A stretch of 64,000 bases of DNA, taken from NCBI GenBank assembly GCA_013153635.1, contig JAADDZ010000015.1, forward strand, positions 84,151 through 148,150, given 5' to 3'. The stretch is from Aquificota bacterium (GTDB lineage: Bacteria > Aquificota > Aquificia > Aquificales > Hydrogenothermaceae). Position 1 is the first letter of the stretch. Every line of letters begins with the position of its first letter. Made by a program: the position numbers and the translations under genes. The notes beneath the pieces were generated by a model, which worked only from the letters and a program-made list of their open reading frames with translations, did not search any database and had not been told where the DNA came from. Positions 3,613 through 54,200 of the stretch are shown here, one piece after another.

Positions 3613-5190
3613 ATGGCTATATCTCCAGAAACTATAGAAGAAGTTCAAAGAACAGCAAACATCTATGATGTTGTCAGCGATTATCTAGACCTAAAGAGAG
3701 CTGGTGCCTCTTACAGTAGTCTATGTCCGTTCCATGCGGAAAAAACACCCTCCTTCTATATATCCCCAGAAAAAAATGTATGGAAATGTTTTGGCTGTGG
3801 AAAAGGAGGAGACCCAATAAAATTTGTAATGGAATACGAGGGGTTATCCTTTACCCAAACGATACTAAAGCTAGCTGAAAAATACGGTATAGAGATAAAA
3901 TACACAGATGGAACAAAAGATAGCCAAAAATTAAAAGGTCTATTTAATGTCACAGAAAAAATATCAGAATTTTATTTTCAGCAACTAAAAAAATCATTTG
4001 AAGCTAAAAACTACCTTATCAATAAAAGGAAACTATCTCCAGAGACTATAAAACGATTTCACCTAGGTTACTCTCCAGAGTCTATCGAAGAGCTTTTAGC
4101 ATTTTGTAAAAAAGAAGATATATCTATTGAAGACCTAAAAAAGGTTGGTGTTCTCTCTGAAAAAAGTGAAAAACCAAAAGATATTTTTGCCGGGAGAGTG
4201 ATATTTCCTATTAGAGATTTAAGAGGTAGAGTCGTTGCCTTTGGAGGAAGAGCTATAAAAGAAAACCAAAACCCAAAATATATAAACTCTCCACAAACAC
4301 AGCTTTACCAGAAAAAAGATGTACTTTACGGCATGTACGAATCCCGAGACTACACAAGAGAAAAAAGAACAGCCGTGCTTACAGAAGGATACATAGATGT
4401 TCTTTCTATGTACCAAGTAGGTATAAAGAATGTTATGGCTCCTTTGGGTACAGCCCTTACAAAGAATCAAGCAAAACAGATAAAAAGATTTGCCAAGAAA
4501 GTAGTGCTGATGTTCGATGCTGATAAAGCAGGCAAAAAAGCTGTGATTTCTGCCGCAAAAGTACTTCTATCCGAAGATATAGATGTTTTATATGCCCCTT
4601 TGCCAGAGGGAGAAGATGCTGATGGACTTGCCAAAAAGGGTTATAAAGCCATTCATTCAATACTGAATGAAAAAAGAGATATATTTATATTTTTAATAGA
4701 ACAATTGGAAAAATTAAATACAGAAAGTACAGAGAATCACGAAGATTTATTGAAAAAAAGATATAAGCTTATAAATTTATATTTAGAGCTTTTAGCTTAT
4801 GTAAAAAATACTGCTAAAAGAATAGTATATCATCAAGCATTATCTCAAGTAACAGGTTTGCCGCTTGAGGCTTTGTCTTTTAGTATTGTAAAGGAAAATA
4901 AAAGTGAGGATAAGGTGATAGATAGTAAATTATCATTAAGAGAGAAGATTGTATTAAAAGCTTTGATCCATCACAAAGACGAGTTGTTAGAGTTTGTAGA
5001 TGATTTTAGTAAAATCTCAAGCTCTGGTTATTTCCTCCATCTTACAGACCTTATTTTGAATAATCAACTTTCACAAGAAGAAAAACAGATGATAGAAAAT
5101 TTTGATGTTCCTCATGACATTAATGTAGCCCTTGAAGCTATTCAAATCATGGAAAATCTCCAAAGGAAAAAATCAATTCTTTCTTTTTAA
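3613..5190 (+). CDS. dnaG: DNA primase
   Basis: A 525-residue primase. The N-terminal zinc-binding domain has CPFH near residue 38 and CFGCGKGGD about 24 residues later. The RNA-polymerase core includes the GRVIFPIRD-like segment and FGGRAIKENQNPKYINSP. The Toprim motifs TEGYIDVLSMY and MFDADKAGKKA hold the catalytic Glu and the metal-binding Asp residues. The C-terminal DnaB-interacting region is short and poorly conserved, which fits a length below the E. coli 581. It sits 28 bases ahead of rpoD in a cut-down macromolecular synthesis operon (no rpsU seen). The start has TTTTGGAG as Shine-Dalgarno. Confidence 0.96.
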   Translation: MAISPETIEEVQRTANIYDVVSDYLDLKRAGASYSSLCPFHAEKTPSFYISPEKNVWKCFGCGKGGDPIKFVMEYEGLSFTQTILKLAEKYGIEIKYTDGTKDSQKLKGLFNVTEKISEFYFQQLKKSFEAKNYLINKRKLSPETIKRFHLGYSPESIEELLAFCKKEDISIEDLKKVGVLSEKSEKPKDIFAGRVIFPIRDLRGRVVAFGGRAIKENQNPKYINSPQTQLYQKKDVLYGMYESRDYTREKRTAVLTEGYIDVLSMYQVGIKNVMAPLGTALTKNQAKQIKRFAKKVVLMFDADKAGKKAVISAAKVLLSEDIDVLYAPLPEGEDADGLAKKGYKAIHSILNEKRDIFIFLIEQLEKLNTESTENHEDLLKKRYKLINLYLELLAYVKNTAKRIVYHQALSQVTGLPLEALSFSIVKENKSEDKVIDSKLSLREKIVLKALIHHKDELLEFVDDFSKISSSGYFLHLTDLILNNQLSQEEKQMIENFDVPHDINVALEAIQIMENLQRKKSILSF

Positions 5191-49282: not shown

Positions 49283-49446
49283 CTTTCTCCCTTTTATTTT
49301 CTAATATTTGAATATACTAATATAGTATTCCTTTTTATAAACATTTACAAATCTGATGATAAGCCTTATGACACCTATCATAGTGTTTATATTTCAATAC
49401 TCTATTATTAACTTAAATTTCTACAAACAAAAAATTGGAGGTATCT

Positions 49447-50526
49447 ATGGCACTACAAGGCGTAATAGACGCACTAAAAAAAACAACATTAGAAGAGATA
49501 GGAATCAATTTTTCCCTAGCAGACCTACTAAAAGATATAAAGATAGAAGGAGATAGCGTCCAGTTAGTCTTATTCTCCCCAAGTGAAAAATACCACCAGT
49601 TTCTAAAAGAAAAAGCAGAACAAACCCTAAAATCAATAGGAGCAAAAGAAATTAAAATACTCTTTACAGACCAACCTCCAGCACAAAGACAACAACCACC
49701 CCCTCCTCCACCACAACCAGAAAACCCATTTGAAAACAGAAAAAGAATCCCAAAAGTGAAAAAAGCTATAGCAGTATCTTCTGGAAAAGGAGGAGTAGGA
49801 AAATCTACAGTAGCGGTTAATATAGCATCAGCTCTAAAAAAGATGGGTTATAACGTAGGATATTTAGATGCAGACATGTACGGTCCATCTGGTCCAACAA
49901 TGCTAGGAGCAAAAGATAAACAGGTTATGGCAAAAAAAGTAGAAGGAAAAGAAGTATTAATAGCACCCCAAGCTCACGGAATAAAAGTTATGTCTATAGG
50001 ATTTCTACTTCCATCAGAAGACACACCTGTTATATGGAGAGGTCCTGTACTATTTAAAGCTCTCAATCAATTCCTTTTTGATGTAGATTGGGGCGACGAA
50101 GAACTAGATTTTCTAATTATAGACCTACCCCCGGGAACTGGAGATGTCCAAATAACATTAGGGCAGTTAACAGAACTCGATGGAGCAGTCATTGTAACTA
50201 CCCCCCAAGATGTAGCTCTAATAGATGTAAAAAAAGGAATCCAGATGTTCAATGAAATAATGATTCCTGTACTAGGAATAGTAGAAAACATGAGTTACTT
50301 TGTATGCCCAGACAACGGAAAAAAATATGAGATATTTGGAAAAAGTAAAACAGAAGAGATAGCAAAGAAATATAACACAGAACTGCTTGGGAAAATACCT
50401 ATCGAACCAAAAGTAGCTGAATTTTCCGACTTAGGTATTCCTATAGTCTTTGCAAAAGAAGACTCTCAATCAGCCCAAGCATTCATGGAAATAGCTAGAA
50501 ACATAATAAAAAAACTAAGCCAATAA
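49447..50526 (+). CDS. mrp: Mrp/ApbC-type Fe-S cluster carrier ATPase
   Basis: A 359-residue protein. An N-terminal DUF59/MIP18-like domain (residues 1-75) is joined by a Pro/Gln linker (residues 76-95, seven prolines in a row) to a P-loop ATPase with the deviant Walker A SSGKGGVGKST, a switch (YLDADMYGPSGP) and IIDLPPGTGDVQ. Mrp proteins hand Fe-S clusters to apo-targets. The usual CxxC near the C-terminus is reduced to a single Cys287 (YFVCPDNGKKY), which is the only Cys in the protein. I place the start at ATG 49447 behind GGAGGT; the TTG 12 bases earlier is part of that Shine-Dalgarno region. It begins the Fe-S/sulfur island. Confidence 0.92.
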   Translation: MALQGVIDALKKTTLEEIGINFSLADLLKDIKIEGDSVQLVLFSPSEKYHQFLKEKAEQTLKSIGAKEIKILFTDQPPAQRQQPPPPPPQPENPFENRKRIPKVKKAIAVSSGKGGVGKSTVAVNIASALKKMGYNVGYLDADMYGPSGPTMLGAKDKQVMAKKVEGKEVLIAPQAHGIKVMSIGFLLPSEDTPVIWRGPVLFKALNQFLFDVDWGDEELDFLIIDLPPGTGDVQITLGQLTELDGAVIVTTPQDVALIDVKKGIQMFNEIMIPVLGIVENMSYFVCPDNGKKYEIFGKSKTEEIAKKYNTELLGKIPIEPKVAEFSDLGIPIVFAKEDSQSAQAFMEIARNIIKKLSQ

Positions 50527-50542
50527 CAAGGAGGTATCAAAC

Positions 50543-51781
50543 ATGTTAGAAACAAGAGGCATTGTTTATGTAGACCATCTAGCAACTACCCCAGTTGCAG
50601 AAGAAGTAATCCAAGCCATGATGCCTTATTTTAGAGAAAAGTTTGGAAATCCTACATCTCTTCACGAACTTGGAGTAGAAGCTAAAAAAGCTATAAACAA
50701 AGCAAGAGAACAAGTCGCAGAACTTTTAAATATAGGCAGACCTGAAGACATCGTATATACATCAGGAGCAATAGAAGCTAACAACCTTGCGATAAAAGGA
50801 TATGCAAAAGCACCGGGAGTTTCAAGGAGAGGAAAACATATAGTAGTATCTTCCATTGAGCATCACTCTATACTCCACTCATGTAAAACTTTAGAAAAGG
50901 AAGGTTTCGAAGTAACATATGTAGAACCTGATGAATATGGTATCATACACCCAGAAAAACTTGCAGAAGCTATAAGACCAGATACTATACTAGTATCCGT
51001 AGGTTATGCCAATAGAGAGATAGGAACACTTCAAGACATTCCTGTTTTGGTAGCCGCCGCAAAAGAAAAAAATCCCCGTGTAGTCTTTCACTCGGACATA
51101 GCCGCCGCCGTTGGACATACACCAGTAGATGTAGAAGGGTGGGGACTAGATATGGCATCATTCACAGGACACTACTTTTATGCCCCAAAAGGCGTAGGAG
51201 GACTCTTTGTAAAAAAAGGAGTTAGACTCAAACCCCTTATCGAAGGAGGTATACAAGAAGGTGGAAGAAGAGCAGGCACAGAACCAGTCCCACTAATAGT
51301 AGGTATGGGAGCCGCCGCAGAACTTGCTCTTAAAGAGATGGACGATAGAGTAACAAGACTAAAACGACTAAGAGATAAACTCAAAAAAGGAATAGAAGAG
51401 AGAATACCTTACATAAAATTTACAGGACACCCAGAAAAAAGACTACCAAACCATCTATCTCTAATAGTGATGTACATCGAAGGAGAAGCGATGCTCTTAA
51501 TGTTAAATATCAAAAAAACATACACCGCATCAGGGTCAGCGTGCGTATCATATGCACTAAAACAATCACACGTCCTAGCGGCTATAGGAGTAGAAAAAGA
51601 GGCATCAAACGGTTCTATCGTTTTCTCCTTGGGAAGAGAAAACACAGAAGAAGATATAGACTACATTATCGAAGAATATCCAAAAGTAATTCAAAGATTA
51701 AGAGAAATATCTCCATTTGGTCCCGAGAACTGGGATAAATTTGCAAAGAAAGCAGACAAATTCAAAAATGTTCAAGGCTAA
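50543..51781 (+). CDS. IscS/NifS-like protein lacking the PLP-binding lysine
   Basis: A 412-residue class V aminotransferase-fold protein, plainly homologous to cysteine desulfurases along its whole length (ATTPVAEEV, SSIEHHSI, HSDIAAAVGHTPVDV, APKGVGGLFV, YTASGSACVSYALKQSHVL). The lysine that holds PLP in GHK(F/I)(H/Y)xPKG is Tyr211 here (GHYFYAPKG, codon TAC). Other PLP-pocket positions also differ: Gln after the Asp185 motif is Ala188, Thr in SGATE is Ile77, NNATTP is HLATTP, NNEIG is NREIG, and QERG is QEGG. Asp185, His107 and the mobile-loop Cys334 are retained. It should not form the normal aldimine. It is intact and well expressed by its Shine-Dalgarno (AAGGAGG), lying between mrp and iscU. 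Confidence 0.88.
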   Translation: MLETRGIVYVDHLATTPVAEEVIQAMMPYFREKFGNPTSLHELGVEAKKAINKAREQVAELLNIGRPEDIVYTSGAIEANNLAIKGYAKAPGVSRRGKHIVVSSIEHHSILHSCKTLEKEGFEVTYVEPDEYGIIHPEKLAEAIRPDTILVSVGYANREIGTLQDIPVLVAAAKEKNPRVVFHSDIAAAVGHTPVDVEGWGLDMASFTGHYFYAPKGVGGLFVKKGVRLKPLIEGGIQEGGRRAGTEPVPLIVGMGAAAELALKEMDDRVTRLKRLRDKLKKGIEERIPYIKFTGHPEKRLPNHLSLIVMYIEGEAMLLMLNIKKTYTASGSACVSYALKQSHVLAAIGVEKEASNGSIVFSLGRENTEEDIDYIIEEYPKVIQRLREISPFGPENWDKFAKKADKFKNVQG

Positions 51782-51871: not shown

Positions 51872-52333
51872 ATGTTTGAATATACAGAAAAAGTTATGGA
51901 TCATTTTATGAATCCAAGAAATTTAGGAGAGATTCCAAATCCTGATGGATACGGTCAATGTGGTAACCCGTCTTGTGGAGATGCTATGTTATTCACCATA
52001 AAAGTAGACAAAGAAAAAGATATTATTACCGACGTTAAATTCAAAACATTTGGTTGTGGCTCTGCAATCGCAGTATCATCTGTACTCACAGAAATGGTAA
52101 AAGGAAAACCTATAGATTACGCACTGAATCTAACCTACAAGGAAATCTTTGAAGAATTAGGAGGTTTGCCAGCTCAAAAGATACACTGTACAAACCTTGG
52201 CTTAGAAACATTACACGTAGCAATAAAAGACTATCTACTAAAACAAGGTAGAGTTGAAGAAGCCGCAAAAATACCAGATTGTATAGAAGAAGAACACGAA
52301 GAAGAAACCATTGACCTTGAACATATAGGATAA
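51872..52333 (+). CDS. iscU: Fe-S cluster scaffold IscU
   Basis: A 153-residue NifU-N/IscU scaffold. The three cluster cysteines are C35 (GNPSCGDAM), C62 (FGCGSAIA) and C106 (IHCTNLG), with the regulatory Asp37. An additional C30 (QCGNP) precedes the first, as I recall from the Aquifex protein. The usual HscA-binding LPPVK is replaced by GLPAQKI, and a long acidic tail (EEEHEEETIDLEHIG) closes the chain. It assembles [2Fe-2S]/[4Fe-4S] clusters. It is followed by a strong terminator. Confidence 0.95.
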   Translation: MFEYTEKVMDHFMNPRNLGEIPNPDGYGQCGNPSCGDAMLFTIKVDKEKDIITDVKFKTFGCGSAIAVSSVLTEMVKGKPIDYALNLTYKEIFEELGGLPAQKIHCTNLGLETLHVAIKDYLLKQGRVEEAAKIPDCIEEEHEEETIDLEHIG

Positions 52334-52409: not shown

Positions 52410-53453
52410 ATGGGAAAAAAGATAAAAGCAATAGCCTTATATTCAGGAGGACTTGATAGTACCTTAGCGATAAAACTGATTCAACAGCAAGGTATAGAAG
52501 TTCTTGCAGTTCACTTTTATACTGGCTTTTGTATCACAGAAACAAAAAGAAGAAGAGGAGAAAAAAAATCAGACGGTACCCATTATATCAACCCTGCACT
52601 AAAATATGCCGCAAAATACAAAATCCCAATAGAGATAGTAGATATTTCCTCTGACTATTTTCACATCATAACAAATCCCAAATATGGTTACGGAAAGAAC
52701 ATAAATCCATGTATAGACTGTAGAGCATTTATGTATAAAAAAGCAAAAGAAATAATGATAAAAACAAAGGCAGATTTTATCATTTCAGGAGAAGTACTAA
52801 ACCAAAGACCAATGAGCCAGCACCTAAAAGCTATGAAACTTATAGAAAAAGAAGCAGGCGTAGAAGGTTTAGTAGTAAAACCACTTTCAGCTAAACTCCT
52901 TCCACCTACTATACCAGAGATAAAAGGCTGGATAAACAGAGAAAAACTAGAAGGTATAAGCGGAAGAAGCAGAAAGAGACAACTAGAATTAGCAAAAACC
53001 CTAAATATAGATGAATTTGAACAACCAGCAGGAGGGTGCTGTTATCTTACAGATGAAAATTTTGCAAAAAAATATCAAGAAATAATATCAGTAGAAAACA
53101 CAATCAGCAGAGATGACCTATATCTACTTACAATAGGAAGACACTTTAGATTACCATCAGGAACAAAAGTTATAGTTACTAGAAACGAAGGAGAAGGTAA
53201 CTTTGTCAGAGGACTAAAAGACAGATATTGGTTCTTTGAACCAATAGGAAAAGGAGCAGTAGCCATCGCTAAAACGATAGACGCAAATCCCCCCTCAAAA
53301 GAAGACCTAAAACAGATAGCTAACCTAATCGCAAGATACAGTAAAACGGAGAATGGTAAAATAAATGTCAAATATCATAGTCCCCAAGGGGAAGAAAGTA
53401 TAATTTTAGGAGAGAAGCTAGAAGAAGCAACCTTGGAAAATTGGAGGATATAA
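52410..53453 (+). CDS. PP-loop ATPase, MnmA/ThiI-like sulfurtransferase
   Basis: A 347-residue N-type ATP pyrophosphatase. The PP-loop is SGGLDS (12-17). Two cysteine motifs, C101-x2-C104 (NPCIDCRAFMYKKA) and C210-C211 (PAGGCCYLTDENFAKK), are in positions used by tRNA-thiolating enzymes. It resembles proteins annotated as 'tRNA (5-methylaminomethyl-2-thiouridylate) methyltransferase', but it is not classic MnmA. A C-terminal RNA-binding-like domain (LPSGTKVIVTRNEGEGN) is present. The position directly before tusA suggests sulfur is received from TusA for tRNA thiolation. The RNA target is unknown. Confidence 0.82.
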   Translation: MGKKIKAIALYSGGLDSTLAIKLIQQQGIEVLAVHFYTGFCITETKRRRGEKKSDGTHYINPALKYAAKYKIPIEIVDISSDYFHIITNPKYGYGKNINPCIDCRAFMYKKAKEIMIKTKADFIISGEVLNQRPMSQHLKAMKLIEKEAGVEGLVVKPLSAKLLPPTIPEIKGWINREKLEGISGRSRKRQLELAKTLNIDEFEQPAGGCCYLTDENFAKKYQEIISVENTISRDDLYLLTIGRHFRLPSGTKVIVTRNEGEGNFVRGLKDRYWFFEPIGKGAVAIAKTIDANPPSKEDLKQIANLIARYSKTENGKINVKYHSPQGEESIILGEKLEEATLENWRI

Positions 53454-53454
53454 A

Positions 53455-53709
53455 ATGAGTGTAAACCTTGATGAAATTAAGCCAGATATAGTCCATGATG
53501 CTACTGGGACTTACTGTCCAGTACCTATCACAGAATTAGCAAAAATTATAAAAACCGCAAAAACAGGGCAGATTATAGAGCTTCTCGCTGACGACGAAGG
53601 AGCTATTCAAGATGTTCCTGCATGGTGCGAAGCAACTGGCAATGAATTTTTAGGATACAAAGAAGACGATGGAATACTAATATTTTATGTGAGGAAAACC
53701 CAAGAATGA
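53455..53709 (+). CDS. tusA: TusA-family sulfur carrier
   Basis: An 84-residue protein with the SirA/TusA hallmark YCPVPITELAK, where Cys21 of CPxP is the persulfide-bearing residue. GQIIELLADDEGAIQDVPAWCEATGNE matches the rest of the fold. A second Cys (about 58) is in a variable place. It relays sulfane sulfur between proteins. It starts 1 base after the PP-loop gene and overlaps the next gene by 4 bases (ATGA), so all are translated together. Confidence 0.94.
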   Translation: MSVNLDEIKPDIVHDATGTYCPVPITELAKIIKTAKTGQIIELLADDEGAIQDVPAWCEATGNEFLGYKEDDGILIFYVRKTQE

Positions 53710-53930
53710 AAATAACATTAGATACAAAAGTTTTTCATCTTTTAGAAGATTACCCGCAAACAGAACAGATTATAAAAAAATACTTTAATTACTTTTACAA
53801 AGAAAAACTTGAGAATATCGCCCTAAAAAGGTTAAGTATAAAAGGAGCTTTTTGCGTTCTTAACCTACCAGAAAAAGATAGAGAAATATTTTTAGATGAA
53901 ATAAATCAAGTAATAATCAAATCTAAATAG
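53706..53930 (+). CDS. DUF1858-like small protein
   Basis: A 74-residue all-helical protein with the pattern of the ScdA-N/DUF1858 family: TLDTKVFHLLEDYPQTEQIIKKYF, then ALKRLSIKGAFCVLNLPEKDREIFLDEIN. Members occur beside Fe-S, NO-stress and hybrid-cluster genes; their biochemical role is unclear to me. One cysteine (about 50). It overlaps tusA by 4 bases and precedes nfu by 12. Confidence 0.7.
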   Translation: MKITLDTKVFHLLEDYPQTEQIIKKYFNYFYKEKLENIALKRLSIKGAFCVLNLPEKDREIFLDEINQVIIKSK

Positions 53931-53942
53931 AGGTGTTTAGAT

Positions 53943-54200
53943 ATGATAAAAGAGATGAGTGAAAAAGAAAAGGAAGTAGAAAATGTTTTAGAAAAGATAA
54001 GACCTGCTCTAACAGCAGACGATGGAGATATAAAGCTTGTAAAAGTAGAAAACGACGTAGTATACCTAGAGCTGTTGGGAATGTGTATTCACTGTCCAGT
54101 TTCAGACATGACAATGAAAGACCTTATTATATATACAGTAAGAGAATCTCTTCCTTGGGTTAAAACTGTGATGATAGGACAAAACAAGTTCAGCCTTTAG
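53943..54200 (+). CDS. nfu: NifU C-terminal-domain (Nfu) Fe-S carrier
   Basis: An 85-residue stand-alone Nfu domain. KIRPALTADDGDIKLVKVEND leads to the cluster-binding CxxC in LLGMCIHCPVSDMTMK (common form GxCxGCPxSxxTL). A dimer bridged by a [4Fe-4S] cluster passes clusters to client proteins. Shine-Dalgarno GAGGTG. It belongs to the same transcript as tusA and is followed 5 bases later by aroE. Confidence 0.93.
   Translation: MIKEMSEKEKEVENVLEKIRPALTADDGDIKLVKVENDVVYLELLGMCIHCPVSDMTMKDLIIYTVRESLPWVKTVMIGQNKFSL

Follow-up and report, generated by a model that had tools for sequence, protein, structure and literature searches.

A lysine-less IscS homolog of the Aquificales, a probable PLP-free partner of IscU

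An IscS/NifS homolog of an Aquificota bacterium (Hydrogenothermaceae), encoded in the 64,000-nucleotide stretch of contig JAADDZ010000015.1 that we analyzed (the window), carries tyrosine in place of the lysine that forms the internal aldimine of pyridoxal phosphate (PLP)-dependent cysteine desulfurases, and none of its Aquificales orthologs has lysine there. We propose that the protein is probably a PLP-free, non-desulfurase partner of the scaffold IscU, in which the mobile-loop cysteine would ligate the cluster, accept sulfur supplied by TusA or as sulfide, or do both. This reading is built on the missing lysine, the joint loss of PLP contacts with the cysteine kept, low dN/dS values, co-occurrence with IscU, linkage to TusA, the absence of SufB and SufS, the many genomes without a lysine-bearing desulfurase, and a structural model nearest to an archaeal IscS solved with IscU.

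PLP site, mobile loop, and fold

The gene is an open frame from its ATG to its stop codon, preceded by a strong ribosome binding site and lying between mrp and iscU; rereading the sequence bore out the coordinates, frame, and motifs given in a first-pass annotation (Table 1). Its product has the class V aminotransferase fold of the IscS/NifS type and scores below the cutoffs of the NCBIfam equivalog models, the best being TIGR03402 with 462 bits against a cutoff of 530.75. An AlphaFold2 model (pLDDT 88, pTM 0.88) is of low confidence only at its ends, at residues 234 to 244, and in the mobile loop (333 to 339), and matches IscS chains with Z scores above 50. The closest structure is Archaeoglobus fulgidus IscS from its complex with IscU (PDB 4EB5; Z = 52.8, RMSD 1.3, 373 aligned residues, 44% identity); structures within 1 Z unit, and hence tied with it, include Escherichia coli IscS in its complexes with TusA and with IscU.

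Table 1. Features of the lysine-less iscS locus in the window
Feature	Positions	Strand	Basis or remark
mrp/NUBPL-ApbC-type Fe-S carrier ATPase	49435..50526	+	PF10609, E 2e-99
Ribosome binding site of lysine-less iscS, AAGGAGGT	50528..50535	+	Read in sequence
Lysine-less iscS/nifS homolog, 412 aa	50543..51781	+	PF00266, E 2e-70
Ile77 (E. coli T76, PLP phosphate contact)	50771..50773	+	Alignment to E. coli IscS
Arg158 (E. coli N155)	51014..51016	+	Alignment to E. coli IscS
Ala188 (E. coli Q183)	51104..51106	+	Alignment to E. coli IscS
Tyr211, codon TAC (E. coli PLP Lys206)	51173..51175	+	Motif GHYFYAPKG, alignment
Cys334, mobile-loop cysteine (E. coli C328)	51542..51544	+	Retained in 152/157 lysine-less homologs
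Lys340, mobile loop	51560..51562	+	Lys in 41/45 lysine-less homologs; lysine-bearing ones mostly Glu/Gly
Val360 (E. coli R354, substrate carboxylate Arg)	51620..51622	+	Alignment to E. coli IscS
iscU scaffold	51872..52333	+	PF01592, E 8e-51; three cluster Cys, Asp39, and Tyr3 (E. coli numbering) kept
ThiI/MnmA-like ATPase fused to NFACT-R_2 domain	52410..53453	+	PF02568, PF18297
tusA sulfur carrier	53455..53709	+	PF01206, E 1e-20
DUF1858-like protein	53706..53930	+	PF08984, E 2e-4, under gathering score; often retained in cluster
NifU C-terminal domain (Nfu) Fe-S carrier	53943..54200	+	PF01106, E 9e-22

The protein shares with the PLP cysteine desulfurase E. coli IscS its fold, 42% identity, the loop cysteine, and the counterparts of the E. 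coli partners IscU and TusA. Aligning the two confirmed every residue change and retention listed in the first pass, beginning with tyrosine at the position of Lys206. T76, N155, Q183, and S203 (Thr208) are replaced, and His107 (E. coli H104), Asp185 (D180), His210, Thr246, and Cys334 are kept. One of the listed changes, the motif QEGG, is indeed present but characterizes the family to which the window belongs; Aquificaceae-like genomes keep QERG. The alignment also added a loss that had been overlooked: R354, which we take from general knowledge of the enzyme class to hold the carboxylate of the substrate cysteine, is Val360. N155, Q183, and R354 are invariant in all 64 lysine-bearing homologs compared. 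The protein thus lacks the aldimine lysine as well as the substrate arginine and the Gln/Asn contacts. With these positions replaced, the proposed loss of ordinary PLP chemistry is almost certain, and the pocket residues predict that the product very probably binds no PLP.

That the protein is nonetheless still a PLP enzyme, holding the cofactor with no Schiff base, or by a different lysine, and with low or altered activity, seems very unlikely. Asp185, His107, and His210 are mostly kept, and a figure legend on the A. fulgidus IscS-IscU structure shows PLP in it despite the missing lysine (PMC9769115). However, T76, N155, Q183, and R354 are all replaced in the Aquificales, and the depositors of an Aquifex structure series described below restored this very residue set. 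No substitute lysine emerges either: compared with lysine-bearing homologs, the lysine-less clade gained lysines at positions 337 and 340 of the mobile loop and at 98 and 131, and none at any pocket column. His107 and Asp185, as PLP-site residues kept in nearly all members, do count against our explanation, and some ligand may still bind.

The mobile loop and its cysteine, noted as retained in the first pass, hold up in the alignment and have a signature of their own. Across lysine-less homologs, N155, Q183 (to Ala), and R354 (to Val or Leu) are lost together with K206, while the loop cysteine stays in nearly all (Table 1). Within the clade E334 has become lysine (41/45), P335 is lost, A331 is Lys or Arg, and the cysteine is present in 45/45; the altered loop charge suggests that the cysteine may have been re-tuned.

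Two structurally characterized proteins are close parallels. A. fulgidus IscS (IscS2; PDB 4EB5, 4EB7, and 4HVK; D199K mutant 4R5F) likewise combines the IscS fold and a loop cysteine with a replaced catalytic lysine and an IscU partner, all of which the window encodes. It is reported to have no desulfurase activity and to donate a cysteine ligand to the IscU cluster (PMC7585200, PMC9769115). It differs in being archaeal and in having Asp for Lys, whereas the bacterial proteins have Tyr, Leu, or Gln. In the archaeon Methanosarcina acetivorans, IscS1, one of three IscS paralogs, is likewise described as missing the essential lysine (PMC7585200). The second parallel is an ortholog, Aquifex aeolicus IscS (PDB 9WFY), 69% identical to the window protein, with a natural Leu212 at the lysine position and QERG kept where the window protein has Tyr and QEGG. 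Its sequence is, letter for letter, that of the natural protein in one of our genomes (G003), which we take to be Aquifex aeolicus VF5. In the variants 9WFE, 9WFB, 9WF8, 9WEW, 9WER, and 9WEP, the K, N, R, Q, T, and other residues are restored stepwise. The Aquifex case has thus already been recognized by others in this recently deposited series, for which no paper was found in the literature searched.

Conservation in Aquificota and the wider lysine-less clade

A genome search found orthologs in 20 of 30 Aquificota genera, all in two families: that of the window, Hydrogenothermaceae (f1), and one that we call Aquificaceae-like (f2), its genomes being taken to include Aquifex and relatives. The same search gave no IscS match in the families f3 to f5. 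The lysine position is Tyr in 32/32 f1 orthologs read and Leu in 40/40 f2 orthologs; lysine occurs in 0 of these 72, so that the outcome named in the first pass as refuting, orthologs with lysine retained, did not appear. Against its nearest orthologs the gene has a dN/dS of 0.012 to 0.05, the same as iscU, which indicates purifying selection. The lysine loss together with these values is a pattern far above chance and in line with the earlier judgment that the gene is not decaying. A strain mutation or pseudogene as the cause of the lysine loss has a negligible probability and was rejected, given 72/72 lysine-less orthologs with open frames and dN/dS of about 0.02. A contig titled as a Flavobacteriales metagenome-assembled genome (MAG) (L167) encodes a lysine-less IscS that shares 85% identity with the window protein; it is probably a misbinned Hydrogenothermaceae contig.

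Lysine-less IscS extends well beyond this phylum. We scanned 84,980 species genomes with a pattern for non-lysine residues at the PLP-lysine site, restricted to the codons of H, Q, D, E, and Y; two phyla were then searched as well; the hits read were those most like the window protein, so the counts are not frequencies. Among the best 30 Nitrospirota hits fetched, all are lysine-less (mostly Gln, also Arg, Glu, Ile, and Met), as are 19 of the best 30 fetched from the phylum of a Thermodesulfobacteriaceae genome (Gln, Ser, Pro, Ala, Thr, and Asn). Further examples come from an Eisenbacteria MAG (Gln), Asgard archaea (His and Asp), DPANN archaea (His), and Planctomycetes (His). In a maximum-likelihood tree computed with the pocket columns excluded and the A. 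fulgidus and M. acetivorans sequences not included, 44 bacterial lysine-less representatives form one group free of lysine-bearing sequences, with moderate support (bootstrap 82, SH-aLRT 99); one more, of the Asn type, stays unplaced, and the Asgard and DPANN proteins fall outside. An ORF read in a wrong frame (L079_f4391) was omitted from the final tree. A single origin for all lysine-less proteins is therefore unsupported. We conclude with moderate confidence that there is one large bacterial clade (Aquificota, Nitrospirota, the Thermodesulfobacteriota-like phylum, and the Eisenbacteria MAG) and separate archaeal cases.

Lysine-less IscS is far wider than described in the literature searched, in which its link to TusA was not found either. 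New here are the extent of the clade, the loop signature, the TusA linkage, and, in the Aquificales, the absence of SufB and often of any desulfurase. The NCBIfam model NF002806 ("IscS subfamily cysteine desulfurase," cutoff 304 bits) is passed by lysine-less proteins of Aquifex (330 bits; L035) and Nitrospirota (305 bits; L284). Automatic annotation errs in calling members of this clade "cysteine desulfurase," and public annotation based on NF002806 would imply active enzymes.

Gene neighborhoods and the proposed role

The window's gene order is mrp, lysine-less iscS, iscU, the ThiI-like/NFACT-R fusion, tusA, the DUF1858-like gene, nfu, and aroE. The minimal IscS-IscU (MIS) system consists of IscS and IscU homologs and lacks HscAB, Fdx, and IscX; a search of the window's gene cluster showed none of these three there. 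The run of iscU, thiI-like gene, tusA, and nfu recurs in 22/22 Aquificales loci examined, and mrp lies directly 5' of the lysine-less iscS in nearly all loci long enough to show it; this pair stands ahead of the iscU cluster in f1 and elsewhere, away from iscU, in f2. The fusion protein, which lies between iscU and tusA in the 22 loci and has CxxC and CC motifs, is a probable tRNA or small-molecule thiolase by its domains and a candidate Fe-S-dependent thiolase fed by sulfide.

The constancy of the mrp pair, even where iscU is distant, raises the alternative that Mrp, and not chiefly IscU, is the working partner of the protein, which might, for example, provide a docking platform where clusters are handed over. 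We consider this unlikely, because Nitrospirota and the Thermodesulfobacteriota-like phylum have tusA and iscU, instead of mrp, beside the gene, and because IscU presence tracks the lysine-less IscS across Aquificota. The order is iscR(Rrf2)-tusA-iscS-iscU in Nitrospirota and tusA-iscS-iscU in the Thermodesulfobacteriota-like phylum, where a DsrE_2 gene (PF13686) is sometimes added (L290, 5752 to 6252; L245, 432 to 935); its product is a possible sulfur source for TusA.

Outside Aquificota, TusA is encoded within 1.5 kb of 31/39 lysine-less loci versus 0/27 lysine-bearing ones (Fisher P of about 1e-11, with related rows), and IscU within the same distance of 35/39 versus 14/27. When the TusA link is tested with phylogeny taken into account, only two or three independent pairs are available, which gives no power. 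A Thorarchaeota copy of the Asp type, outside the bacterial clade, has both TusA and IscU as neighbors. The IscU cluster ligands are conserved (C37 and C63 in 116/116, D39 in 113/116, and C106 in 114/116). These neighborhoods lend support to two ideas of the first-pass annotation, that IscU is the likely partner and that TusA-borne sulfur may be used.

In our preferred reading, the lysine-less IscS and IscU would most likely assemble as an (IscS-IscU)2 complex, with Cys334 on the flexible loop extending to the site on IscU. There the cysteine would be a cluster ligand, an acceptor of sulfur arriving as TusA persulfide or sulfide, or both, and clusters would form without cysteine desulfuration on this protein. 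Binding to IscU is predicted with high confidence. The chances that Cys334 serves as a cluster ligand appear evenly balanced, and TusA as the physiological sulfur source, with a route to Cys334 and IscU, falls only a little short of that. Sulfur would then move opposite to the E. coli direction, which is from IscS to TusA. Counting against this explanation are the f2 loci, where the gene adjoins mrp and not iscU, the small number of independent transitions, a lysine-bearing homolog in the bacterium's own genome, and a near-complete genome (G036) that has IscU but in which lysine-less IscS was not found.

A stricter A. fulgidus model, possible though rather doubtful, would make the protein only a structural ligand donor: Cys334 would cap an IscU cluster built from free sulfide and iron, and TusA would serve tRNA thiolation with the ThiI-like gene, unrelated to IscS. 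The archaeal precedent favors this model, as does the position of tusA directly after the thiI-like gene in the Aquificales; many lysine-less lineages are anaerobes or sulfur bacteria, and sulfide is a plausible supply for such organisms. What speaks for a TusA connection instead is that outside Aquificota tusA adjoins the lysine-less iscS and iscU, in the order iscR-tusA-iscS-iscU, and no thiI-like gene is seen there.

Fe-S assembly without a recognizable desulfurase

The suggested search for a normal IscS elsewhere in the bacterium's own genome turned one up, excluding the notion that there is no normal copy. This NifS-like homolog (G000:C1:57735-58832) is 33% identical to the lysine-less protein, has the lysine and all canonical pocket residues, and adjoins neither iscU nor tusA; cysteine desulfuration as such therefore need not be lost in this organism. 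A PF00266 search of 24 Aquificota genomes (20 from f1 and f2, 4 from f3 and f5) gave a different picture for others. Lysine-less IscS is present in every f1/f2 genome except G036, and a lysine-bearing NifS, IscS, or SufS is absent from 12 of these 20 (G099, G101, G031, G032, G035, G036, G038, G039, G041, G053, G055, and G060). The other PF00266 matches in the 12 are glyoxylate-type aminotransferases, presumed glycine dehydrogenase subunits (weak matches near E = 1e-11 in frames of 480 to 500 residues), or a second lysine-less NifS in a nif cluster. Hidden desulfurases among them were considered and rejected, the 15 remaining matches read being glyoxylate-type aminotransferases by sequence (one compared with NCBIfam).

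None of 136 Aquificota genomes has SufS, and SufB/D (PF01458) is missing from all 20 f1/f2 genomes, each of which has a single copy of IscU. Because SufB is missing, IscU with the lysine-less IscS is the sole recognizable Fe-S scaffold system in these Aquificales, and some have no recognizable cysteine desulfurase whatever. A bacterial order has retained the ISC scaffold and discarded the PLP chemistry of IscS; several of its genomes lack every known type of desulfurase, and SUF is absent from all that were tested. In bacteria without an ordinary version, cluster assembly must be fed otherwise, perhaps by the sulfur carrier TusA.

Sulfur is generally held to enter Fe-S clusters through cysteine desulfurases almost universally. 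The known exception is the methanococci, where sulfide is used (PMC7585200). A Thermococcus kodakarensis paper (PMC12442378) reviews archaeal assembly fed by sulfide or S0, as well as the minimal MIS and SMS systems. We tentatively suggest that lysine-less IscS, IscU, and TusA may constitute a separate kind of bacterial Fe-S assembly system. The "desulfurase" would then work as acceptor and scaffold, and the sulfur would be delivered by TusA, itself charged from sulfide or sulfur metabolism, instead of by cysteine. In many Aquificales this would be the only Fe-S assembly system, hence life without any cysteine desulfurase. Cultivable bacteria are thereby offered for testing sulfide- or TusA-fed cluster assembly.

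Several genomes depart from the common pattern. The four deeper Aquificota genomes (G106, G107, G114, and G120, from f3 and f5) encode SufB/D, and neither IscS (lysine-less or otherwise) nor IscU nor SufS was found in them; they likely use a sulfide-fed, SMS-like assembly. In G036 (Aquificaceae-like, 99% complete), IscU-thiI-tusA-nfu is present and lysine-less IscS was not found. In the Aquificaceae-like genomes G033, G038, G031, and G053, the gene at the nifS position of the nif cluster also lacks the PLP lysine (GHYFYAP, DGPSLMAPQG, and DGPFLLAPQG; L083, 2157 to 3353; L087, 3671 to 4738; L088, about 3640 to 4720; L089, 3727 to 4848), and its neighbors are nifV, nifB, and an aldehyde ferredoxin oxidoreductase-like gene.
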